Virus record (IMG/VR): IMGVR_UViG_3300031999_000103
Coordinates: 1 to 36,023 of that record
DNA length: 36,023 nt
Strand: one strand, 5' to 3'
Source of the DNA: a virus
The number at the start of each line of letters is the position of its first letter. Position 1 is the stretch's first letter. Shown piece by piece: positions 1,321 to 33,748 of the stretch. A program made the position numbers and the translations under genes. The notes under the pieces are model-generated. The model had not been told where the DNA came from. It made no database searches and saw nothing but the letters and a program-made list of their open reading frames with translations.

Positions 1321-1689
1321 TCAGTCGCCCTTCTCTGGTGTTTTTCGTCGCCCCACACAAATTCCCAGGCCGATATGTGCGCACTCCGAGTCGCAATACA
1401 CCTGCATTATCCCGCTAGGAACGAAATCATGCCGGCCCAGCACTCTGCACCTACACTCCCTGTTTGCCCCCAAATCACAATATATCGTACGCACACAATT
1501 GATGTCAAGTTTTTTTTCACTTTTACACTCGGGATCCACGGCAAACTGCGGAAAACACTGTACGTTTTCATCGCCATCTACTACCTCTGCCTTTAGCTCG
1601 ACATCTTCTGTCGGCTCGGCGCCGTCACCGATCGCGTAGCGTGCCGTCTCGAGTACGTCCAGCACAAGCCTCAAAATCCATTTTACCAT
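1321..1689 (-). CDS. Cysteine-rich small protein
   Basis: A 122-residue protein with an amphipathic or hydrophobic N-terminus (MVKWILRLVLDVLETA), an acidic middle and a C-terminal half with about nine cysteines (for example REC-RC-R, DSEC). AAGGGA lies 7 nt before the ATG, inside the 3' end of the primase gene, which it overlaps by 7 bases. Cysteine spacing is not a recognisable zinc finger. It sits in a group with two predicted lipoproteins. Not recognised. Confidence 0.55.
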   Translation of the reverse strand: MVKWILRLVLDVLETARYAIGDGAEPTEDVELKAEVVDGDENVQCFPQFAVDPECKSEKKLDINCVRTIYCDLGANRECRCRVLGRHDFVPSGIMQVYCDSECAHIGLGICVGRRKTPEKGD

Positions 1690-2507
1690 GGCTTCGTTCC
1701 CTTCCTTGGTTTGTAGCTAAATGTTGCAATATACCCTGCTACATCGCTGTGATCTGCTGCGTCGTCTCCTCGTCCTCCGACAGCCGGCAAGCATCGAGCT
1801 CGCACGCCGTGACCCCCCAGCAGATTCGCGACGTCGCGCGCGTACGCCGCACCAGGCTCGTCGTTGTCTGGCCAGACAAGCACCTCCCTGCCAGCAAGCA
1901 CCGACCAATCGCTTTTGCGTGCCGCTGCGGCGCCCCCAACTGACGTTGTCGCGACAAGTCCGGCGGCGGCAACGGCATCGGCTGCCTTTTCACCCTCAGT
2001 AATCACCACGAGGCCGGTTGAGCTCATGACCTTGGGTAGCCCGTACAAAGGCCGCAGCGGGGCAGGCAGACCCCAACACCAGCCTCCTGTGCATGTAGTC
2101 ACGGGTCGTATAGTTTTCGCACCGCTGGCATCATGGAGCCGGTAAACCAAAAAAGCAGTAGACATGTCGCTGCTCTGGTATCGCCACTCGTGCGCTAGCT
2201 CGAGCCCTGGCAGCGACAGCGGAGCATCGATCGCGTTGCGAAAAATCTGAGCCGGGCGCGGCGGGAGACGGCACGGCTGTTGACTTGTCCTCCGCGTAAT
2301 CGGCGCGGTCACCCCCAACGCGGCTATGATATCGCGATAGTCGCACCCGGCGTGGCAATACAGCAGCGGCGCACCGTTGCGAGCGCTGACGCTTATCGCC
2401 AGTGATCGGGTTTTGTCTCCGTGTGCTGGGCATAGAGCCGTCCATTGCCCCCTCGATCCCTTGACTCCGGCTAGCCTAGACATTACGTCATCGATGGTCA
2501 GCCCCAT
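1683..2507 (-). CDS. DNA primase, CHC2 zinc finger plus TOPRIM
   Basis: A 274-residue protein expected to make RNA primers on the phage template. CPAH (about residues 26-29) and CHAGC (51-55) form the CHC2-type zinc-binding domain. TEGEK (170-174) and the acidic WPDND (212-216) are TOPRIM catalytic motifs. It is short and has no C-terminal helicase domain, so it resembles the primase half of P4- or T7-type primase-helicases. The ATG at 2507 has GGAAGGGGA just upstream and follows the stop of the replication gene by 12 bases; an ATG at 2654 would add low-complexity residues overlapping that gene. Adjacent to the presumed origin. Confidence 0.85.
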   Translation of the reverse strand: MGLTIDDVMSRLAGVKGSRGQWTALCPAHGDKTRSLAISVSARNGAPLLYCHAGCDYRDIIAALGVTAPITRRTSQQPCRLPPRPAQIFRNAIDAPLSLPGLELAHEWRYQSSDMSTAFLVYRLHDASGAKTIRPVTTCTGGWCWGLPAPLRPLYGLPKVMSSTGLVVITEGEKAADAVAAAGLVATTSVGGAAAARKSDWSVLAGREVLVWPDNDEPGAAYARDVANLLGGHGVRARCLPAVGGRGDDAADHSDVAGYIATFSYKPRKGTKPW

Positions 2508-2521
2508 ACCCAGTCCCCTTC

Positions 2522-3505
2522 CTAGAAACACGCATCGTCGTCGGGCAGCGCGAACGTCTTGATCTGCTCTTTGCTGTGCCTTATCGCGCGCTTCTGCGGC
2601 GGCGGCTCGTCTGGCAAATGACTTACGTATGGGCCCGTCGGGAGCGGCGCCCATCGGTCATTGGCCAGCGCAGCCGCGTATCCACCATCGTCGTCATCTT
2701 GCCCGGGCATGGCATCATCTTGCCCGGGCATGGCATCATCTTGCCCCGAGTCCCGCGTGCGCGCGGGAGGTAGTATGTCTCGCTGTAGGGGTATGTCCTT
2801 GTCTTTATCAACGTCATAGGGTGTTGATTTTTCCGTCTCTTCTTCTTTCATGTACGTACCCGTACCCGTACCCGTACCATGTTTGCCACAATTTGCTACA
2901 TCGTTTGCTACGGTTTTGCTAGGGTTTGCTACAAGTTTTGCTACAAGTTTTGCTACAGGTTTGCTACAATTTGCTACGTTGTTTGCTTCGAGTGCGACCT
3001 CTTCAGTGGTGCCAGTGGTGCTCGGCGACGCCAGCGCTGCTGCCCTTGCTCTACCTCCTCTTCTCCCTGCCTCTGCTCTGGCCTCGCTGACGCTTCCTCC
3101 TTTCGCTTGTGATTTCCGGGACTTATTGTAGACTGCGTAGTCGTGGATAGATAGTGTCCCGTCGTCCGCGACATCAATTAGACGCGCGCGCGTCATGGCG
3201 GATATGACGTCTCTCGAGACAGCAATTGACAGTAGCATACCTAACGGGATCGTGCCTCCCGTTAGGTGGCGCGAGCACCACGCCAGGCATCGCGAGTAGC
3301 AGCCGGCGATAATGTTCGTCGTGAACGGCAGTAGGGCATCGCCGTTTGCTACATCGTTTGCTACAGTTTTGCTACAATTTGCTACATCGTTTGCTACATC
3401 GTTTGCTAGGGCTTCGCGTCGCGCCGACAGCGACGCCGCGAGGTACTCGCTAGCTAGGTGCAGCTTGGGGTGGTCAGTGTAAGAGTCACAAAGCTTGGTC
3501 CACAT
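2522..3505 (-). CDS. Phage replication initiator-like protein carrying internal iterons
   Basis: A 327-residue protein. The N-terminus (MWTKLCDSYTDHPKLHLAS, then a segment around CLAWCSRHLTGG.IPLGML) matches the pattern of phage winged-helix replication proteins that begin W-x-K-x-D...F-x-x-H-P-K and continue ...YCARHLTDG-x-IP. A basic linker rich in RRGGRARAAA follows, then an acidic, repeat-rich linker and a basic end. Two stretches of VAN/CSK/VAK residues correspond to DNA clusters of the octamer GTAGCAAA, so the gene probably contains the replication origin, as lambda O does. CGGGAG lies 8 nt before the ATG. The primase follows directly. Confidence 0.7.
   Translation of the reverse strand: MWTKLCDSYTDHPKLHLASEYLAASLSARREALANDVANDVANCSKTVANDVANGDALLPFTTNIIAGCYSRCLAWCSRHLTGGTIPLGMLLSIAVSRDVISAMTRARLIDVADDGTLSIHDYAVYNKSRKSQAKGGSVSEARAEAGRRGGRARAAALASPSTTGTTEEVALEANNVANCSKPVAKLVAKLVANPSKTVANDVANCGKHGTGTGTGTYMKEEETEKSTPYDVDKDKDIPLQRDILPPARTRDSGQDDAMPGQDDAMPGQDDDDGGYAAALANDRWAPLPTGPYVSHLPDEPPPQKRAIRHSKEQIKTFALPDDDACF
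2698..2746. repeat. 21-nt tandem repeat in replication gene linker
   Basis: Two exact 21-nt copies (2698-2718 and 2719-2739) plus a 7-nt partial third. They encode a repeated G-Q-D-D-A-M-P heptapeptide in the acidic linker of the replication protein. The unit is a multiple of three, so copy-number change would keep the frame. Confidence 0.85.
2855..2878. repeat. 6-nt tandem repeat (CGTACC x4)
   Basis: Four exact tandem copies of CGTACC on the plus strand, encoding a Gly-Thr run in the replication protein linker. It directly flanks the larger iteron cluster. Probably a slippage-generated linker; a part in origin structure cannot be excluded. Confidence 0.85.
2882..2989. repeat. Iteron-like cluster 1 (10 octamers), putative replication origin
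   Basis: Ten copies of TTTGCTAC (minus-strand GTAGCAAA) or one-mismatch variants start at 2882, 2892, 2904, 2915, 2925, 2937, 2949, 2960, 2970 and 2982, so spacing is 10-12 nt, about one helical turn. The octamer is read in different codon phases (Val-Ala-Asn/Lys and Cys/Pro-Ser-Lys), so the DNA motif rather than the peptide is conserved. Clustered repeats inside an initiator gene are typical of theta origins such as lambda. Confidence 0.65.
3345..3409. repeat. Iteron-like cluster 2 (6 octamers)
   Basis: TTTGCTAC or a one-mismatch variant starts at 3345, 3357, 3368, 3378, 3390 and 3402, the same motif and 10-12 nt phasing as cluster 1, about 360 nt away in the 5' part of the same gene. Encoded residues are VAN-DVAN-CSK-TVAN. 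The two clusters together could form a looped origin complex. Confidence 0.65.
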
Positions 3506-3555
3506 CGATCGATCTCCCGGTAAATTAGCAACGCCATATGATTATTACATCAATT

Positions 3556-4022
3556 TTAGACCGAGTCAAATAAATCCGCGGCGGTCGTCAGCACCTTCTC
3601 GAAATGAACCTTCCCTTTCTGCGTGACGTACGCCTGTGCGGACGTGACGACAGGCAGGCCGGGGCGCTTGATGCTGGTCGACTTGACGACAAAGAACTTC
3701 GCGCCAGTCTCGCCATGCTGTACGTATGGCACCAGATGACCGTCCTGCCGAAACATGTAGCCGCTGTCATAGAGCCAGCGGCAGAAGTGGTTAGGTCCAA
3801 CCCCGAGAGCTCGCCCGCAGTTCTGCAGCGTGTAGAGACCCTCCGCGTTGACATACCGGTCGTACAGCTCGGCCTTGGGCTCGAGCTGCGCGACTGTGCC
3901 AGTGAGCGAGTCATCACCGCAGTCGTCGACACAGCCTCAGTGGCGTTCGCCGCTGCAAGACGCATGGTTGTGTGCCCCGCACTCATGGGCTCATCCGCGA
4001 TATCCAGGGCCTTGGTGTGCAT
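3556..4022 (-). pseudogene. KilAC-type antirepressor-like gene, frame disrupted
   Basis: The ATG at 4022 has a strong ribosome site (AAAGGAG, 8 nt away) and opens a frame MHTKALDIADEPMSAG... that keeps coding to VMTRSLAQ. From about 3900 to the stop at 3556 the clearly protein-like sequence is in the -1 frame: LEPKAELYDRYVNAEGLYTL, then NCGRALGVGPNHFCRWLYDSGY and a C-terminal V-T-x-K-G-x-x-x-F pattern. That is the layout of KilAC domains at the C-terminus of phage antirepressors. The second frame has no ATG, GTG or TTG before 3756. At the junction, TGGCACAG is followed by TCGCGCAG, an imperfect 8-nt duplication whose removal would join ...RSLAQ to LEPKAELYD... in frame. It is either a mutated gene or one needing -1 frameshifting. 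Confidence 0.6.
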
Positions 4023-7641: not shown

Positions 7642-8541
7642 TTAACCTCGCTCCGTTTTTCTCTTGCTGCCTCCGTGTCTGGCGAGTGCCTTGGCAAACT
7701 CTCTACAGAACCAGCTGTTTTGCGCTGCTCTCTCGTCTGTCCTGCTTTTTGGTGCGCGGACCTGCCGCGGGCGAACTTTAGCAGCAGCAGCATAAGCAGC
7801 AGCAGCAGCATCACGGGCAGCAGCAGCAGCAGCAGCAGCATCAGCAGCAGCATCAGCAGCATAAGAAGCAGCACGAGCAGCATAAGCATCAGCATCAGCA
7901 GCAGCAGCAGCATAAGCATCAGCATCAGCAGCAGCAGCAGCATAAGCATCAGCACGGGCAGCAGCAGCAGCAGCAGCATCACAGGCAGCAGCAGCAGCAG
8001 CAGCAGCATCAGCAGCAGCATCAGCAGCATAAGCAGCAGCATCAGCATCAGCACGAGCAGCAGCAGCATCAGCAGTAGCACGAGCAGCATAAGCATCAGC
8101 ACGAGCAGCAGCAGCATAAGCATCAGCACGAGCAGCAGCAGCATCAGCAGCAGCATCAGCAGCAGCACGAGCAGCATAAGCATCAGCACAGGCAGCAGCA
8201 GCAGCAGCAGCAGTAGCATTGGCCCTATCTGCACACCACTGAGCAAATCGGACGATAATATCCGTTACATCAACAGGACCGGCAATCACCTTGCGGTCTG
8301 TACAGACGATTTTGTCGATATACTTTACGATTTTCCCGCTACACTCCACCAGCGTAAGACACGGACCGGGAGCGTATTGTAGCGCGTCGAGTGGCTCTAT
8401 GCTGGCATGTAGACCGCGGACACACAGCTGTATCTCGTCCTCGTGTAGTGCAAGCCCCGCTACGACATGCGTGTGTCCGTTCACCGGCTTACGTAGTCTC
8501 CCCCCTAGGGACAAAAAATGATACGCAGTGATTGGTTTCAT
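7642..8541 (-). CDS. Alanine-tract array protein 4 (DUF7666-like N-terminus)
   Basis: A 299-residue protein in three parts. Residues 1-105 are a conserved domain (MKPITAYHFLSLGG..., CVRGLHAS, DALQYAPG, DKIVCTDRK) that resembles the phage N-terminal domain I know as DUF7666. Residues 105-250 are almost only Ala with scattered Asp, Tyr, Arg and Cys, in short runs such as ADAYAARA. Residues 250-299 are basic (KVRPRQVRAPKS, TDER, EFAKAL). The N-terminal domain is identical over about 85 residues to array protein 1, while the exit into the tract (WCADRANAT) matches protein 3, so it is mosaic. Its tract is the longest of the four and its C-terminus (HGGSKRKTERG) differs from the others. Function unknown. 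Confidence 0.75.
   Translation of the reverse strand: MKPITAYHFLSLGGRLRKPVNGHTHVVAGLALHEDEIQLCVRGLHASIEPLDALQYAPGPCLTLVECSGKIVKYIDKIVCTDRKVIAGPVDVTDIIVRFAQWCADRANATAAAAAAACADAYAARAAADAAADAAAARADAYAAAARADAYAARATADAAAARADADAAAYAADAAADAAAAAAAACDAAAAAAARADAYAAAAADADAYAAAAADADAYAARAASYAADAAADAAAAAAAARDAAAAAYAAAAKVRPRQVRAPKSRTDERAAQNSWFCREFAKALARHGGSKRKTERG
7780..8222. repeat. AGC/GCT trinucleotide-rich tract 4
   Basis: About 440 bp made mainly of AGC triplets on the plus strand (GCT, Ala, on the coding strand), interrupted by ATC, ATA, ACG and ACA triplets (Asp, Tyr, Arg, Cys). The longest uninterrupted run, near 8193-8213, has about seven AGC units. Such DNA is prone to replication slippage and recombination. 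Confidence 0.9.
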
Positions 8542-9317
8542 GGCTCACCACCCGCCTTTAGTGCCTTGGCGAACTCTACGCGCAGCCAGCTGTTTTGCGT
8601 TTTTCTTTCGTCTGTACCGCGTTTCGATGCGCGGCGCCGCCGGGGGCGAGCTTTAGCAGCAGTAGCATCATACGCAGCAGCAGCAGCAGCCGCTTTGGCG
8701 ACATTAGTAGCAACAGCAGCAGCACGGGCGGCAGCTGCGGCACAAGCAACACCATAAGCAGTAGCAGTAGCACCATACGCAGCAGCATCCGCCGCCGCTT
8801 TGGTGACATTAGTAGCATAAACATCAGAGCGGGCAGACGCGGCAGCAGCATTAGCAGCAGCAGCATAAGCAGCAGTATAAGCAGCAGCACGGGTAGCATT
8901 GGCGGCACGTGTAGCAGCAGCAGCAGCATCAGCAGCATCACGGGCGGCCCAAAATGTTGCATCACAGGCAGCAGCAGCAGCAGCAGCAGTAGCATTGGCC
9001 CTATCTGCGCACCACTGAGCAAATCGGACGATAATATCCGTTACATCAACAGGACCGGCAATCACCTTGCGGTCTGTACAGACGATTTTATCGTCCTCGC
9101 ATAGCACATCTCCGCTACACTCCACCAGCGTAAGACACGGACCTGGAGCGTATTGTAGTGCGTCGAGTGGCTCTATGCTGGCATGTAGGCCGCGGACACA
9201 CAGCTTTATTTTATCCTCGTGTAGCGATAGTCCTTTTGTGACATGAGTGTGTCCGTCCACCGGATGGCGCATGCGCCCCCCCAGGACCAAAAAATGATAT
9301 GCAGTGATTGGTTTCAT
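8538..9317 (-). CDS. Alanine-tract array protein 3 (DUF7666-like N-terminus)
   Basis: A 259-residue paralogue with the same plan: conserved N-terminal domain (GGRMRHPVDGHTHVTKG..., CVRGLHAS, DALQYAPG), alanine-rich tract, basic tail (KARPRRRRASKRGTDER). It is the most divergent of the four: SGDVLCEDDKIV replaces SGKIVK.IDKIV, and its tract includes more Asn, Thr, Val and Ser with an internal near-duplicate (YATNVTKAAADAAAYGAT and VATNVAKAAAAAAAYDAT). Its last residues KAGGEP overlap the next ATG as ATGA. Function unknown; same gene family as its three neighbours. Confidence 0.75.
   Translation of the reverse strand: MKPITAYHFLVLGGRMRHPVDGHTHVTKGLSLHEDKIKLCVRGLHASIEPLDALQYAPGPCLTLVECSGDVLCEDDKIVCTDRKVIAGPVDVTDIIVRFAQWCADRANATAAAAAAACDATFWAARDAADAAAAATRAANATRAAAYTAAYAAAANAAAASARSDVYATNVTKAAADAAAYGATATAYGVACAAAAARAAAVATNVAKAAAAAAAYDATAAKARPRRRRASKRGTDERKTQNSWLRVEFAKALKAGGEP
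8654..8998. repeat. AGC/GCT trinucleotide-rich tract 3
   Basis: About 345 bp of AGC-dominated triplets, less pure than the other three tracts, consistent with this being the most diverged paralogue. Confidence 0.85.
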
Positions 9318-9320
9318 GGC

Positions 9321-10103
9321 TCACCCGCCTGCCTTTAGTGCCTTGGCAAACTCTACGCGCAACCAGCTGTTTTGCGCTTTTCTTTCGTCTGTACTGCTTT
9401 TTGGTGCGCGGACCTGCCGGGGGCGAACTTTAGCAGTAGCATCATACGCAGCAGCAGCCGCACGAGCAGCAGCAGCAGCATCAGCAGCAGCACGGGTAGC
9501 ATAAGCAGCAGCACGGGCAGCAGCAGCATCAGCATCAGCAGCAGCAGCAGCAGCATAAGCAGCAGCATAAGCAGCAGCAGCACGAGCAGCATCATAAGCA
9601 GCAGCATTAGCAGCATAAGCATCAGCACGGACAGCAGCAGCATAAGCAGCAGCATCAGCATTGGCAGCATAAGCAGCAGCATTAGCAGCATAAGCAGCAG
9701 CATCAGCAGCATCAGCATTAGCATCAGCAACAGTACCGACAGCATAAGCAGCATTAGCAGCATAAGCAGCAGCAGCAGCCTTGGCGCGTGTAGCACACCA
9801 CTGAGCAAATCGGACGATAATATCCGTTACATCAACAGGACCGGCAATCACCTTGCGGTCCGTACAGACGATTTTGTCGATATCCTTTACGATTTTCCCG
9901 CTACACTCCACCAGCGTAAGACACGGACCGGGAGCGTATTGTAGTGCGTCGATCGGCTTTATGCTAGCATGTAGGCCGCGGACACACAGCTGTATCTCGT
10001 CCTCGTGTAGTGCAAGCCCTGCTACGACATGCGTGTGTCCGTTCACCGGATGGCGCATGCGCCCCCCCAGGGCCAAAAAATGATACGCAGTGATTGGTTT
10101 CAT
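9321..10103 (-). CDS. Alanine-tract array protein 2 (DUF7666-like N-terminus)
   Basis: A 260-residue paralogue. The N-terminal domain is nearly that of proteins 1 and 4 but starts LALGGRMRHPVNG, sharing GGRMRHPV with protein 3. The alanine tract (about residues 107-215) is rich in Tyr-Ala, Asn-Ala and Asp-Ala. The basic C-terminus (KVRPRQVRAPKSSTDERKAQN) is close to protein 1. The stop falls one codon earlier than in proteins 1 and 3, so the next ATG comes 3 nt after it instead of overlapping. Probably arose by tandem duplication and gene conversion. Confidence 0.75.
   Translation of the reverse strand: MKPITAYHFLALGGRMRHPVNGHTHVVAGLALHEDEIQLCVRGLHASIKPIDALQYAPGPCLTLVECSGKIVKDIDKIVCTDRKVIAGPVDVTDIIVRFAQWCATRAKAAAAAYAANAAYAVGTVADANADAADAAAYAANAAAYAANADAAAYAAAVRADAYAANAAAYDAARAAAAYAAAYAAAAAADADAAAARAAAYATRAAADAAAAARAAAAAYDATAKVRPRQVRAPKSSTDERKAQNSWLRVEFAKALKAGG
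9431..9785. repeat. AGC/GCT trinucleotide-rich tract 2
   Basis: About 355 bp of AGC triplets interrupted mainly by ATA, ATC and ATT. The coding strand gives Ala with Tyr, Asp and Asn. Nearly all codons in it end in T. Confidence 0.9.
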
Positions 10104-10861
10104 GGCTCACCCGCCTTTAGTGCCCTGGCAAACTCTACGCGCAACCATTCGTTTTGCGCTTTTCTTTCGTCTGTACTGCTTTTTGGTGCGCGGACCTGCC
10201 GCGGGCGAACTTTAGCAGCAGCAGCATCAGCAGCAGCTCGAGCAGCTCGAGCAGCATCACAGGCAGCAGCAGCAGCATAAGCAGCAGCAGCACGAGCAGC
10301 ATCACAGGCAGCAGCAGCAGCAGCAGCAGCAGCATAAGCATCAGCACGGGCAGCAGCAGCACGAGCAGCATCATAAGCAGCAGCATCACAGGCAGCATAA
10401 GCATCAGCAGCAGCATAAGCAGCAGCAGCACGAGCAGCATCATAAGCAGCAGCATCACAGGCAGCATCAGCATCAGCAGCAGCATAAGCAGCAGCAGCAC
10501 GAGCAGCACCACAGGCAGCAGCAGCATTAGCAGCAGCCTTGGCACGTGTAGCACACCACGCAGCAAATCGGACGATAATATCCGTTACATCAACAGGACC
10601 GGCAATCACCTTGCGGTCTGTACAGACGATTTTGTCGATATACTTTACGATTTTCCCGCTACACTCCACCAGCGTAAGACACGGACCGGGAGCGTATTGT
10701 AGCGCGTCGAGTGGCTCTATGCTGGCATGTAGACCGCGGACACACAGCTGTATCTCGTCCTCGTGTAGTGCAAGCCCTGCTACGACATGCGTGTGTCCGT
10801 TCACCGGCTTACGTAGTCTCCCCCCTAGGGACAAAAAATGATACGCAGTGATTGGTTTCAT
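10100..10861 (-). CDS. Alanine-tract array protein 1 (DUF7666-like N-terminus)
   Basis: A 253-residue protein, first of the four to be transcribed. Conserved N-terminal domain (residues 1-100), alanine tract (100-205), basic tail ending EFARALKAGEP. The tract contains an obvious internal duplication of about 22-23 residues built on YDAARAAAAYAAD...CDAAA, visible as a 66-69-bp DNA repeat around 10370-10505. Such periodicity with mostly Ala suggests long helices. The start overlaps the stop of the 82-residue gene (ATGA). Cellular role unknown. Confidence 0.75.
   Translation of the reverse strand: MKPITAYHFLSLGGRLRKPVNGHTHVVAGLALHEDEIQLCVRGLHASIEPLDALQYAPGPCLTLVECSGKIVKYIDKIVCTDRKVIAGPVDVTDIIVRFAAWCATRAKAAANAAAACGAARAAAAYAAADADAACDAAAYDAARAAAAYAAADAYAACDAAAYDAARAAAARADAYAAAAAAAAACDAARAAAAYAAAAACDAARAARAAADAAAAKVRPRQVRAPKSSTDERKAQNEWLRVEFARALKAGEP
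10212..10538. repeat. AGC/GCT trinucleotide-rich tract 1 with internal 66-69-bp duplication
   Basis: About 325 bp of AGC triplets interrupted by ATC, ATA, ACG and ACA. A segment beginning ATCATAAGCAGCAGCATCAC near 10370 recurs near 10439 with few changes, showing that blocks larger than single triplets have duplicated. Confidence 0.88.
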
Positions 10862-28475: not shown

Positions 28476-29381
28476 CTAAGCCACCTTCACGATACGCTGC
28501 CAGCGGCCCGGCTTTGCGATGCCTCTCATGCGGACCTTGTACGAATAGACTTCTTTCGAGAACGCAGTGTCGCCGTCTTCGAGGGACTCGAACGTCACAG
28601 GCTCGCGCTCTTGCAGAATCAGACCGCGGACCGGAAGGTCTTTGATCCCAACGTAATATTCAGCGGCGCTCGTAGCGGTCAGCAGCGGCTCGGTGATGAT
28701 CTCGACCTGCATGCCGCTGAATTGCACGTTGCTGGTGTTCGCGACGACGCCAGCAGTAACGGCTTCAGAGATCGGCTTGCTGAGCGCAGGCGGAGCCAAC
28801 ACATAGATTGATTTGAACCCACGGTTGCAAGGCTTCCCTGCTTCGTCCAGCATGTTTGACAGCGCCGCAATGCTCGCGCCGATATCGGTCTGAGCGTTGG
28901 CGGTGCTGCTGCCGCTGTACGAAACCAGGTTGCTTTGCACGCCGCTGCTTCCGCGCGCCGGATGCGTCGCTGAAAACAGAGCGTTTGAGTCATAGCTCTC
29001 GTAAGTCGTGCCGTTAACGAGCACCTCAACTAGCATCTCGTCCCAGTATTGCACAGCCCTTCGAGCAAGGTCCTGGATGCGGATTGCAATGCCGCCGGTC
29101 TTCTCGTCAGCGAGATCGTCGCGCTTGACCTGGATACCACCAGTATATTTCTTGTTGATCGCCTCGAACGACGCTTCAGACAAACCGTCAAATTGAACTT
29201 CACCCAGGAACTCGCTCACGCCCTGCACGTCACCGAGCCATGCGAGATTCTCGCGATCGCCATCGCTGCTGAGATAGGTTGCGATCGACGGCAGCAGCAG
29301 AGGGCTGTTCGCCATGAGCGCTTCGATAAATACGTTTCTCAACCCACGCTGTAGTTGGATTGGATTTGCAAGGATTGACAT
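28476..29381 (-). CDS. Major capsid protein, Mu gpT-like
   Basis: A 301-residue protein of the Mu gpT major head subunit family: LQRGLRNVFIEAL, LGDVQGVSEFLGEVQFDGLSEASFEAINKKYTGGIQVKRDDL near the start, WDEMLVEVLVNGTTYESYD in the middle, and the C-terminal PVRGLILQEREPVTFESLEDGDT.FS.E.YSYKVR.RG block. Expected HK97-like fold. GGAGAAGAGAAA precedes the ATG. Follows the protease/scaffold gene, as in Mu-like heads. Confidence 0.9.
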   Translation of the reverse strand: MSILANPIQLQRGLRNVFIEALMANSPLLLPSIATYLSSDGDRENLAWLGDVQGVSEFLGEVQFDGLSEASFEAINKKYTGGIQVKRDDLADEKTGGIAIRIQDLARRAVQYWDEMLVEVLVNGTTYESYDSNALFSATHPARGSSGVQSNLVSYSGSSTANAQTDIGASIAALSNMLDEAGKPCNRGFKSIYVLAPPALSKPISEAVTAGVVANTSNVQFSGMQVEIITEPLLTATSAAEYYVGIKDLPVRGLILQEREPVTFESLEDGDTAFSKEVYSYKVRMRGIAKPGRWQRIVKVA

Positions 29382-29411
29382 TTTCTCTTCTCCGTCCTTT
29401 CTTTTTTTCTA

Positions 29412-32180
29412 CTAGTTTGCGCCAGCGCAAACGCACACATCAGCGGCGGCGTCAGCACAACCGACGATGGTCATGTCGCCCGTGTTTTGTCCAAACACAC
29501 AGGCATGCGTGCAAGTCGAATTGCACGCAGTGTTTGCGAGAGCCACAACAGCCCAGCCAAGCGCGCCGGTGCCGGTCGATTTTGGCAGCACGGCGCCGAA
29601 ATCGAAGCTAACAACGCCAGTAGTCGACGACAGCGCGAGAGCATCGTTGGAGATCGTGATCTCAAAGTCCTCGCTGTTTTCGGCGACCGACAGCTTATTG
29701 TTCGCGCTCTGGTCAATCGTCAGGCCGTCGCTCAGAGCAATCGAGTCAGTCACGGAAACGCGACCAGTCACCTTCACGTCGGAACCAGCTGGCTCAAGGT
29801 GCAGATCTCCGGCGCCGGTATTAATGTGTGCGTCGGTTTGGTCGTGGGCGATCGAAACGTACTGCGCGACGGTGGTCGCATCGGCAGACTGGACCCACAA
29901 CGTCGGGTTAGCCTGGTCGGCATGAGTAAAATCAGTTGCCATGTCGGCCTTCTGACAGACGATCAACCCCTCGCTATCAGCGCCAAGGCCAATAACAAAC
30001 GAGTCAGGAGTCTGGCTAGTGTCGTACTCGAAACATGCATCAGCACTCGTGCCGTAGCAGGTCTTGAGCTGATCGACTTGCGTCGAGTAGCCGCTGAGCA
30101 ACAGACCCTCGACACCGTCAGTAGTATCGACAGTGAGCAGATCGAGAGTGCCAGTCGACCCGACAAGGAGAGCAGTACTGTCGTTGTCGTGCAAAACAAT
30201 CGACGAATTAGTATCGCTTAGAGTAATGGCGCCGGCGCCGCCGGCAACGGTGAGGTCTCCAGTCAGCGACATCGGGTCAGCAGTCGAATATACGCGGCTC
30301 GGCAGATACGAAGCGACAAAAATCCAACCCTCCGTCGACGACACCACCTCCAACAAAATCCCGGCAACGGGCTCATTGGCGCCAGGCGTCTCGTCAAAGG
30401 TTTGATCATCTGACGCGTACATGATGTCTGCAACGCTAGTGATCGCGATTGACGTCGCCTTAAATTTGAAAACGCCTGACTGTACTTCGACCCAATAGGT
30501 ACCAGACGCCGCGGCAATCACGGTCTTGACCGCGACGCCAACAACGCCGTTATTGCTCGCGCTCGCCTCGGCGGCGTGAGCATAGCCGGCGCTGTCGATC
30601 ATGACCAAGCCACCAGCATAGACGGTATGAGACGCCTTGACTTTGTAGGTCTTGATGTCGCCCAAGCTCTTGCTCGACGTCTGTCTGGCGGCAGACAGGG
30701 CGCCAGCGGAAACGTCGCCGGCGAACAAGATCACGAACAGCGCAGCAACGAACCCAACAAGCTTTCGCCACGCGTCGCGGCTCATGATTCTGCCATCGCT
30801 CATCTCGACCTGCCCGTCCGCGCGAACGCCGCGAACGTCGTCGATCTTTGCAATGCGGTCAGCAGACGTGCCGAGCCAACGAGCAACCTGCTCCTCGCCA
30901 TCCGACGCGACGGCATTCGCGCTGACGACCGCGACGACGCTAGCTCGCTCGGCGCGCACGACGACCGGGAACGCGGCAAGCGCAGCCTCGAAACCTGCAA
31001 CGTTGTCGCCGTATGCTTCACCCAGTTTCTGCATGCTCTCCATCATCGCGGGAGTGACCTTTCCGGCGGCCTGCGCCAGTGCCAGCGCGTTGTCCCGCTG
31101 TGCGGCTCTGACAGCAGCGAGCGTGGCCCTGAGCACGTCAGCTTCTGCGCGCGCTGAGACCAGCTCGCGCTCCTTCACTTCCTGGTTGCCGACATCAGCA
31201 GTGCCGGCGACGGTCGGATTCAATGACATTTCTCTCTCCTCTGCGCCGGCTCCCGGCGCTACGGTTGCAACAACACCATGCAGCAGCGACAATGCTCCCG
31301 CATGCTCGGTCCCAATAGCCATAGTGGCGGCTCCCGGCGCGGAAAAGGGGAGAACACGCCGGGCAGCGCTGAGATGTGCTTGCTCAGCAGAGCAAACACC
31401 ATCGGTCAGGCCAATCTTATTCGCTTCCTCGCCAAGCCAGACTTGTCCTGTGGCCATTGCTCGCGCTGCATCGATTGATATTCCGCGACCAGAAGCAACA
31501 GCAGAAACGAACAGATCATTATACGCTTCCACACCTCGGCGAACGTCGGCGATCTGATCGTCGGTTACCGGAGCGCCGGGAACACCGGCCCCCTTTAGCG
31601 GACCACTAGCGACAACGTGGACGACTATCCCCTCGTTGGCCGCGGCACGAGACGAGTCTTCGACGACACTATAGACTCCGATCGATCCGACCTCTGCAGA
31701 CGGACAAGCGGTCACAGTGTCTGCCTGCGCAGCAAGCCAATACGCGGCTGACGCGCCAAGATCCGACACGTGAGCGGCAACAGGCTTAGCCGACCTTGCG
31801 GCATACACTCGCTCGGCCGCCTCAGCAACACCCGACACGGTTCCGCCGGGACTATCTACGTCGAGCATAATCGACGCAACATCCGAGTCAGATGCAGCGA
31901 GATCGATTGCCGCCCCGATGTCAGCAGCAGCAGCGTGTTCGATGCCGAAATATCTCAGCAGCGCCGACGCGGTTTTCAAGATCGGGCCCTTCACGGAAAC
32001 GTGTGCTACGCCATCTCTCACAGAATAAGGTTCGAGCTCGGCAGCTGTCGGAGGACGGTATGCCGCTTTGGCCGCAGCTGATACGTCAAGACTCCTAACT
32101 GTCGCGAGCAAGTCCGAAATCGCGCGTTGATCAATCGCCCAAATTTCACTAGACAAACCCATTACAGGATCGCTGCTCAT
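29412..32180 (-). CDS. S49 head protease - scaffold - decoration fusion
   Basis: A 922-residue composite. Residues 1-300: SppA/S49-type protease with MLDVDSPGGTVSG (106-117), the nucleophile in GASAAYW (S144) and SIGVYSV. Residues 318-465: scaffold-like, charged helical region (EVKERELVSARAEADVLRATL..., LGEAYGDNVAGFEAAL). Residues 475-495: a hydrophobic run (GFVAALFVILFAGDVSAGA) that looks like a signal peptide. Residues 500-630: DUF2190-like cement domain (YKVKASHTVYAGGLVMID...). Residues 640-922: beta-repeats ending in an eight-cysteine tail. Protease and scaffold in one gene is common; the added decoration part and the hydrophobic run are unusual. It overlaps the portal end by 4 bases. Confidence 0.8.
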   Translation of the reverse strand: MSSDPVMGLSSEIWAIDQRAISDLLATVRSLDVSAAAKAAYRPPTAAELEPYSVRDGVAHVSVKGPILKTASALLRYFGIEHAAAADIGAAIDLAASDSDVASIMLDVDSPGGTVSGVAEAAERVYAARSAKPVAAHVSDLGASAAYWLAAQADTVTACPSAEVGSIGVYSVVEDSSRAAANEGIVVHVVASGPLKGAGVPGAPVTDDQIADVRRGVEAYNDLFVSAVASGRGISIDAARAMATGQVWLGEEANKIGLTDGVCSAEQAHLSAARRVLPFSAPGAATMAIGTEHAGALSLLHGVVATVAPGAGAEEREMSLNPTVAGTADVGNQEVKERELVSARAEADVLRATLAAVRAAQRDNALALAQAAGKVTPAMMESMQKLGEAYGDNVAGFEAALAAFPVVVRAERASVVAVVSANAVASDGEEQVARWLGTSADRIAKIDDVRGVRADGQVEMSDGRIMSRDAWRKLVGFVAALFVILFAGDVSAGALSAARQTSSKSLGDIKTYKVKASHTVYAGGLVMIDSAGYAHAAEASASNNGVVGVAVKTVIAAASGTYWVEVQSGVFKFKATSIAITSVADIMYASDDQTFDETPGANEPVAGILLEVVSSTEGWIFVASYLPSRVYSTADPMSLTGDLTVAGGAGAITLSDTNSSIVLHDNDSTALLVGSTGTLDLLTVDTTDGVEGLLLSGYSTQVDQLKTCYGTSADACFEYDTSQTPDSFVIGLGADSEGLIVCQKADMATDFTHADQANPTLWVQSADATTVAQYVSIAHDQTDAHINTGAGDLHLEPAGSDVKVTGRVSVTDSIALSDGLTIDQSANNKLSVAENSEDFEITISNDALALSSTTGVVSFDFGAVLPKSTGTGALGWAVVALANTACNSTCTHACVFGQNTGDMTIVGCADAAADVCVCAGAN
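31227..31242 (-). promoter_or_regulatory. Internal ribosome site and ATG for nested scaffold
   Basis: In the minus strand AGAGGAGAGAGAA is followed directly by an in-frame ATG at 31229, codon 318 of the protease fusion. AGGAG spacing is near ideal. A nested start here would give a separate scaffold-type product (MSLNPTVAG...), as lambda Nu3 is made inside gene C. Confidence 0.6.
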
Positions 32181-33691
32181 TGGTCCTCCTCGACGTAATC
32201 TGACTCGTCGTCTACTTCTGGTTCTACTGCGTCAATCGGATCTTGATCCGTGATTCGATCGCGCTCGTCGGGCACCAGCTCTACTGGTGCGCGGCCCGGA
32301 AGCTCGGTCTCTGCATCGAACGGATCGAATTCGAGCGCTTCTCTTATCGCTGACTCGAGCCGCGCATCACGGCGAACGAGACCGACATTCGCAGCATTTA
32401 TTAAGATTGGGATCCTGTCCTGCCATGGAGCGGTCGGCAAATTCCGCGCTTCGAGGCTCGGCATACTAACGCCTACACCATAATTCAGCTCGACGATGCG
32501 TCGGACCGGAGACCAGCCGTCACACCCCAAGTTCCAGCCGCGTTCGAGGAATCTGGCGTGTGCTTTCTCGGCCAAGTGATATTGACCCTGCTGCGTCGCG
32601 CCTAGCGCGTATGATCCGCCTCCTCCCTGCAGGCCCAGCAGCATGAACCCGGCTGACACGTTGTAGGCAATCTCTGCATTACATGCAGCAATCGCAGCCT
32701 CGACGTTACTGCCAGAGGAGGTCGTCGCACCCTGCCACGAGAAAGTCCAGCCGCTGTCGAACACGGCATATCCGCGTTGATTCGAGCGCATCTCTTCGAG
32801 CACTGCCTCGACGGCGCGGACGTCGTCGTCTGTCGCATCTTCGCTGGCAATCGCAACTGGCGTCGGCACGGCGAGGCGCTCATGCTTGATGGCGGCGATG
32901 GCCTGAAACGCCATTTTCATTTTCCATGCACCGTACGCGCTGCGCAACACCGCCATGCCCTCATAGTTCGCGGCGTCCTGGTCCCATGTCCAGCGCAGGA
33001 TTCTGTCCGCGGCGATAGTCCGCCAACCAGGCGTTTCTCCGTCAGACCCTTGGACATGCTGCACGACCGCCGCGATTCGTGCCGGATCTGACGTATCCTG
33101 CTCCCAACCGTACACGGACCACGGCGCAATCTGATGCAAGCCGGTCGGCACTATGCCAACCCCCCCGCCAGGATGCAACGCGAATCTATCTCGAGACACC
33201 GCTGCTGCATCGTCGGTCATCTCGACAAGCGCGAACCCGCACGACCCATAGTCGAGTATGATTCGCTTGAGTATATCAAGCCACGGCAGACGGTCGACGA
33301 ATGCCCATTGGCAGAACGCTGCAATTTCTCGGTCGAGCGGAGAATCAGACGCCGGTCGAAATCGCCACGCAGCAGACAGCAACGGAGAGTAGATTGCGGC
33401 CAGGCTCTGTCTGACGTGGGCATCGCGCAACATTTTCTGCGCTATCCCTAGCGTGCCAGACGAGCCGTACCATTTCGAGCCGCGGCAATCGGCATTTTGG
33501 TCGACGCCGGAAACGTACCCGGTTACGATCCGCGTTCCGGCACCAGATACCCTCCGCGATCGAGCCGCATCGGACGCGCTGTCCGACCTGGCAGATGCGG
33601 CCCTGACGGCAGCCAGACGCGTGCCTAGCGCGGGGGAAATTGCGGCAACTCGGTTCTCGCCGACGCCTAAAGCGCGTCTAAGAGTCGTCAT
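32177..33691 (-). CDS. Portal protein, Mu gp29-like (DUF935)
   Basis: A 504-residue protein. Blocks RDAHVRQSLAAIYSPLLSAAWRFRPAS, FVDRLPWLDILKRIILDYGSCGFALVEM, IAPWSVYGWE and ILRWTWDQDAANYEGMAVLRSAYGAWKMK fit the DUF935/Mu gp29 or related portal class. The acidic C-terminus (VEPEVDDESDYVEEDQ) is common in portals. An in-frame TTG exists at 33733, but the ATG at 33691 has AAAGGA about 10 nt upstream and is preferred. Forms the dodecameric DNA gate of the head. Confidence 0.85.
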   Translation of the reverse strand: MTTLRRALGVGENRVAAISPALGTRLAAVRAASARSDSASDAARSRRVSGAGTRIVTGYVSGVDQNADCRGSKWYGSSGTLGIAQKMLRDAHVRQSLAAIYSPLLSAAWRFRPASDSPLDREIAAFCQWAFVDRLPWLDILKRIILDYGSCGFALVEMTDDAAAVSRDRFALHPGGGVGIVPTGLHQIAPWSVYGWEQDTSDPARIAAVVQHVQGSDGETPGWRTIAADRILRWTWDQDAANYEGMAVLRSAYGAWKMKMAFQAIAAIKHERLAVPTPVAIASEDATDDDVRAVEAVLEEMRSNQRGYAVFDSGWTFSWQGATTSSGSNVEAAIAACNAEIAYNVSAGFMLLGLQGGGGSYALGATQQGQYHLAEKAHARFLERGWNLGCDGWSPVRRIVELNYGVGVSMPSLEARNLPTAPWQDRIPILINAANVGLVRRDARLESAIREALEFDPFDAETELPGRAPVELVPDERDRITDQDPIDAVEPEVDDESDYVEEDQ

Positions 33692-33748
33692 AGCTATACC
33701 CATTCCTTTAGTCTTAGCACGCTTTGTAGTCAAATGTCAAGAGATATC

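Follow-up and report, generated by a model that had tools for sequence, protein, structure and literature searches.

In an uncultured phage, represented here by a window of 36,023 nucleotides (the whole stretch of DNA that was analysed), the replication origin is in all likelihood embedded in the initiator gene, and we put the probability of this at about 0.8. The evidence, as read from the sequence, is based on the family of the initiator, on an array of octamers that are constrained as DNA, on the location of this array next to AT-rich and tandemly repeated DNA, and on the recurrence of similar arrays at the same place in other initiators. Such evidence reinforces the proposal of a likely origin made in the first-pass annotation, and it provides a concrete, testable pair of candidate origin and initiator in an uncultured phage.

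Table 1. Coordinates of the initiator gene, its repeats and the neighbouring elements in the window.
Feature	Position	Strand	Evidence or description
Primase-like gene, Zn-ribbon + TOPRIM, start taken at MGLTIDDVMSRL	1683..2507	-	phrog_6088 DNA primase 5e-32
Replication initiator gene, 327 aa	2522..3505	-	phrog_2447 3e-13, phrog_3926 8e-10, over aa 48-189
Most AT-rich 150 nt of the window, candidate unwinding region	2824..2973		58% vs 41.6% mean
Tandem hexamer TGGTACGGGTACGGGTACGGGTACG (GGTACG repeats), encodes GTGTGTGT	2855..2879	-	25-nt period-6 run directly after cluster 2
Iteron cluster 2	2882..2989	-	10 octamers, 7 exact; steps 12,10,11,12,12,10,11,12,10
Conserved glycine-arginine segment RAEAGRRGGRARAA, aa 143-156	3038..3079	-	precedes arrays in relatives (AGRxGGxAKA)
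Predicted winged-helix domain sequence, aa 13-127	3125..3469	-	matches many winged-helix domains weakly (Z about 4.5-5.8)
Iteron cluster 1	3345..3409	-	6 octamers: 5 GTAGCAAA + 1 CTAGCAAA; steps 12,12,10,11,12
Promoter-like TTGACT-17-AATAAT, extended -10 TG	3541..3569	-	resembles the consensus, with no other evidence; chance predicts about 1 in the region scanned

The Octamer Array

The initiator gene, on the minus strand (3505..2522), contains 16 octamers that are at most one mismatch away from GTAGCAAA (12 exact and four with one mismatch). This sequence of 8 bp is non-palindromic and occurs as direct repeats, which form two clusters separated by a gap of 355 bp (Table 1). The exact coordinates and counts recovered here agree with the initial description of 16 octamers at 2882–3409, in clusters of 10 and 6 and at a spacing of 10–12 nt. 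The GCAAA core is kept in all 16 copies, and only 4 of the 128 octamer positions are mismatches to GTAGCAAA, while the spacers differ in both length and sequence. Over the whole window, GTAGCAAA with up to one mismatch has 41 matches against 19 expected, and groups of three closely spaced TAGCAAA words number 10, as against 0.00 in shuffles; there is no other 7-mer array in the window besides the two clusters, except for GCN microsatellites in alanine-rich genes.

The octamers had been described as helically phased. The best-fit period of their spacing is 11.15–11.25 bp (R 0.95–0.96), whereas at a period of 10.5 bp R is 0.70 and 0.44, which is no better than random steps of 8–16 (P 0.08 and 0.20). 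Successive steps are either 12, which keeps the codon phase, or 10 + 11 = 21, which amounts to two exact turns and briefly shifts the phase. Because adjacent copies lie on nearly the same face and drift slowly, an array phased on one face is an approximation: the pitch of about one turn (around 11.2 bp) holds, but phasing at 10.5 bp does not rise above that of random steps.

The Initiator Gene and Its Neighbours

The gene product matches the replication initiation profiles of PHROG 2447 and PHROG 3926 through its N-terminal domain, and the primase-like gene follows directly downstream, so that the original placement of the array inside a putative initiator and beside a primase is borne out by the profiles of both genes (Table 1). 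The Toprim and Zn_ribbon_DnaG matches of the primase-like gene are below the Pfam cut-off, and no DnaB-type helicase was recognised among the window proteins scanned. The protein consists of an N-terminal domain predicted to be winged-helix-like, an AGRRGG basic segment and a disordered C-terminal half, in whose coding sequence most of the repeats are found. In an AlphaFold2 model based on six sequences, pLDDT is about 80 at residues 11–30 and 60–120 and below 50 at residues 168–327, which are thus predicted to be disordered. Fold comparison of this model gave many winged-helix matches, all under a Z of 8, which together with the model's own order of helices and strands are no more than suggestive; Foldseek returned no match to it below E 0.001. 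The viral contig collection and the isolate phages searched contain no close relative of the whole initiator protein, and a DNA similarity search of the array against phages and plasmids gave no match.

The two clusters occupy different parts of this protein. Cluster 1 encodes residues 33–54, which lie between two predicted helices within the sequence of the predicted DNA-binding domain and constitute an insertion relative to the relatives of this protein. Cluster 2 codes for the first part of the disordered tail, soon after the AGRRGG segment, where other initiators carry their arrays. The protein appears to be bent around the DNA signal, one block of iterons being part of the coding sequence of the very domain by which it is probably read.

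The AT-rich stretch covers most of cluster 2 together with its downstream flank. GC skew, which had been suggested as a check on the location of the origin, is negative throughout, with no switch; since all the genes are on one strand, it places no origin and is neutral for or against the proposal. A second short tandem repeat is present in the initiator gene, downstream of the iterons at 2685–2740 on the minus strand, with CAAGATGATGCCATGCCCGGG units that encode the peptide QDDAMPG.

The promoter-like site lies upstream of the initiator ATG (3505), and it bears on another possible function of the octamers, namely that they are initiator-binding sites chiefly for autoregulation or copy control (by roadblock or handcuffing), with the true origin elsewhere. 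Plasmid-type initiators often autoregulate, and two clusters 355 bp apart, one of them near the start of the gene, would suit looping or repression. We nevertheless regard this explanation as improbable: the arrays are inside the gene and away from the promoter-like site, cluster 2 falls in the 150 nt of highest AT content and adjoins a tandem element of a kind seen in other initiators, and the window has no further array.

The same upstream region contains a KilAC antirepressor domain (PF03374, 7e-21) at 3556–3936 on the minus strand, in an open frame that lacks a start codon. The likely N-terminal part (MHTKALDIADEPMS...) is in another frame, which indicates a frameshift just upstream of the initiator gene; this may be due to a sequence error, to decay or to slippage.

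Similar Arrays in Other Initiators

The nearest isolate relatives of the initiator are in actinophages, where they are annotated as replication initiation proteins or RepA-like initiators, and several of these phages have a DnaB-like or primase/helicase gene nearby. This phrog_2447/phrog_3926 family resembles the protein studied here in its profile match and in having a short DNA tandem repeat at the corresponding position of the gene. Unlike this phage, however, most of these isolates have a CCCGA pentamer tandem without an octamer array; Arthrobacter phage 1191A is the sole isolate relative with AGCAAAC/GGCAAA-like 12-nt iterons, and these are accompanied by CCCGAC repeats. In the actinophage initiators L197–L199 and L202–L207, the tandems at the corresponding position are of CCCGA or CCCGT pentamers and extend over about 20–40 nt (RPDPTRPDPTRP). 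Both GGGTC repeats, the complement of these actinophage tandems, and the GGGTAC repeats of this phage could form G-quadruplexes.

Other initiators with TAGCAAA were collected by searching for the motif, so sharing the motif is not evidence by itself; the evidence lies in the placement of the arrays, their use of codon phases and their spacing. Distant relatives that have TAGCAAA arrays are 28% (L100), 25% (L063), 21% (L059), 22% (L104) and 22% (L081) identical to this initiator over the full protein. Metagenomic or prophage examples include L100, L059, L063, L073, L081, L046 and L093, and arrays also occur in initiators of PHROG groups 9327, 13246, 15768 and 678. In these initiators, the array comes after a GGxAKA-like segment and often before a dipeptide/hexamer tandem. 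All of the 18 initiators examined use TAGCAAA in both of the codon phases in which its TAG is not read as a stop, and synonymous shuffles rarely or never match the TAGCAAA count in 17 of them, the case being weaker for L096 (45 of 2,000). The spacing of the TAGCAAA cores in 17 other initiators is 10 (9 cases), 11 (36) or 12 (33); a further, small group lies at 21–24 (about two turns), and the range between is almost empty. These uncharacterised initiators hence share with this phage the word, the spacing of 10–12 nt, the position after GGxAKA and, in many cases, a 5/6-mer tandem; they differ in having fewer copies and, for several, in belonging to other PHROG families. Tandems of 5- or 6-mers at least 18 nt long are present in 61% of 31 initiators versus 8% of 175 other ORFs at the same loci, although the 31 are not independent cases, given the relatedness among many of the actinophage genes. 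A two-block arrangement exists independently in a different initiator-like gene (L093:1853–2047), where TAGCAAA occurs five times in each of two clusters.

Comparison with these homologs also bears on a recent, functionless expansion by slippage, of the microsatellite kind. Tandem duplication did contribute to the array, as certain 12-mer units (GTAGCAAACGAT, GTAGCAAAACTT) are repeated without any change; as a full explanation, slippage is very unlikely, given that the octamer is nearly constant while the spacers vary, that two separate clusters share it and that distant homologs keep it. Another candidate is a parS-like partition centromere, with a ParB-type protein bound to short direct repeats. 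Directly repeated 8-bp parS motifs do occur in extrachromosomal phages such as the cluster A mycobacteriophages (PMC7157519). However, the window proteins scanned gave no match to ParA or ParB, and both the repeats here and comparable arrays at other loci are found in initiator genes, which leaves a centromere with hardly any probability.

One pair of loci suggests which part of the protein recognizes the iterons. L294 and L295 share 61–73% identity with the C-terminal part of the L063 initiator; the N-terminus of L294 differs from that of L063, as seen on inspection of its translation, and L295 is cut before its N-terminus. TAGCAAA is absent from both the L294 and L295 loci. This natural swap fits the idea that the iterons belong with the N-terminal DNA-binding domain, which would read them. 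The TAGCAAA word does not track a single DNA-binding domain, since the arrays occur with several families of initiators.

Arrays of a reversed control word, AAACGAT(G), are present in initiators too, at roughly 8 of the 40 distinct loci, and homologs of phrog_9327 and phrog_2447 collected without this bias have no TAGCAAA array but other repeats instead. These results weaken the case for GTAGCAAA as a special, universal iteron and point to a general rule of short iterons within the gene, with TAGCAAA as one recurring word. The control pattern also led to L109 and L110, initiator-like genes with another class of iteron (GGCAAACGATG repeats, encoding the peptides ANDGKRWQTMANDGK). Many in-frame 12-nt matches in cellular genomes (L131, L138, L157, L188 and others) were discarded as ordinary peptide repeats, for example VAKP, in proteins that are not initiators. 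Six relatives, when aligned, proved too divergent for the alignment to serve in scanning collections.

A more speculative possibility, which we consider rather doubtful, is that TAGCAAA arrays with a pitch of one turn, preceded by AGRxGGxAKA and often followed by a 5/6-mer tandem, make up a portable origin cassette, which phage initiators from at least five PHROG groups have come to share either by its spread among them or by convergence. If this were so, recognition would involve a shared element beyond the variable N-terminal domain, such as a host protein or the segment rich in GR, and the tandem repeat would be a common melting element. A rule for locating origins in unstudied phages can be formulated from these arrays: both non-stop phases are used, the pitch is one turn, and the array comes after a GR-rich segment and often before a tandem.

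Constraint on the Octamers as DNA

The octamers are a DNA signal and not a peptide repeat. Twelve of them are read as V/L/E-A-N/K, and the other four, which fall in a second codon phase, give x-S/G-K (CSK, CSK, PSK and CGK). When codons were resampled from the phage's own usage with the protein kept fixed, the exact GTAGCAAA occurred on average 0.41 times and at most 4 times in 20,000 trials, as against the 12 observed; shuffling the initiator gene's own synonymous codons gave at most 8. It is because codon choice is so far above chance and because two codon phases are used that we consider the octamers to be constrained as DNA, and the earlier assertion that the octamer is read in more than one codon phase, the DNA rather than the peptide being conserved, is fully upheld. 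Selection for a VANDVAN/VAK peptide as a linker or coiled segment, with the DNA repetition as a by-product, would suit the 12 octamers in one phase but is scarcely credible in view of the four in the other phase, of the codon choice and of the use of both non-stop phases by all 18 initiators.

A Proposed Mechanism

The reading of the array as an origin leads us to propose the following mechanism. The winged-helix initiator would bind the GTAGCAAA octamers, one protomer to each, at the pitch of one turn (about 11.2 bp), and a wrapped or filamentous nucleoprotein complex would form on the 10 sites of cluster 2 and the 6 sites of cluster 1, with a possible bridge over the 355 bp between the clusters. 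The strain that this complex imposes would then open the neighbouring AT-rich DNA in the area of the tandem GGTACG repeats, and the initiator may use its disordered C-terminal part to recruit replication proteins, among them the primase from the adjoining gene.

Comparison with Known Systems

An origin with iterons inside the gene is of a kind already known. In lambda and Stx phages, iterons and an AT-rich tract lie in the middle of gene O, and two extra iterons add 13 aa in the Stx case; the lambda iterons are 19-bp imperfect inverted repeats, 4–6 in number and in one block (PMC7466680). The present array resembles lambda ori in that the iterons are within the initiator gene and have an AT-rich neighbour. 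It differs from it in having 16 non-palindromic direct repeats of 8 bp, with a pitch of about 11 bp and in two blocks, one of these within the sequence of the predicted DNA-binding domain, and in having a tandem hexamer. Moreover, the N-terminal domain of lambda O is in a PHROG family other than that of this initiator. The array would therefore work like lambda ori yet contains no lambda-type iteron, since GTAGCAAA is 8 bp long and non-palindromic instead of an inverted repeat of 18–20 bp. The analogy with lambda drawn in the first-pass annotation survives for the proposed mechanism and the general layout, with more and shorter iterons as stated there; the symmetry of the iterons and their arrangement in two blocks differ.

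The origin-binding protein of SPP1, gp38, has its oriL sites, which are direct repeats, within gene 38 itself; an AT-rich unwinding element lies beside them, and there is a second site, oriR (PMC6316719). The direct repeats within the gene, the AT-rich neighbour and the two binding regions are all similar here, where binding is a prediction, but the SPP1 sites are about 13 kb apart, whereas both clusters are in a single gene in this phage. In the case of mycobacteriophage RepA, the proposed origin lies in repA or adjacent to it, with no repeats identified (PMC7157519).

The iteron plasmids with P1/F-type RepA/RepE are alike in combining a winged-helix initiator, which is predicted here, with an array of direct repeats. 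Plasmid iterons are longer than these octamers and are outside the rep gene. A search of the openly accessible literature yielded no paper describing this class of array, and the papers returned by a text search for the octamer have no obvious connection with phage origins. We did not find the layout of short iterons in two clusters described, and it is a variant of the known kind.

Other Features of the Window

Four tandem paralogs (MKPITAYHFL...) occupy 7642–10861 on the minus strand, and the one copy tested matches DUF7666. Their C-terminal halves are long alanine-rich tracts encoded by GCN microsatellites, and they look like a recently amplified, fast-evolving family.

The terminase of this phage has no match among isolate phages. 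At 28476–33733 on the minus strand there are a Mu-like portal (4e-33), a gpT capsid (4e-30) and an S49 protease, and a Mu-type head module is thus present in a phage with theta-type replication genes.
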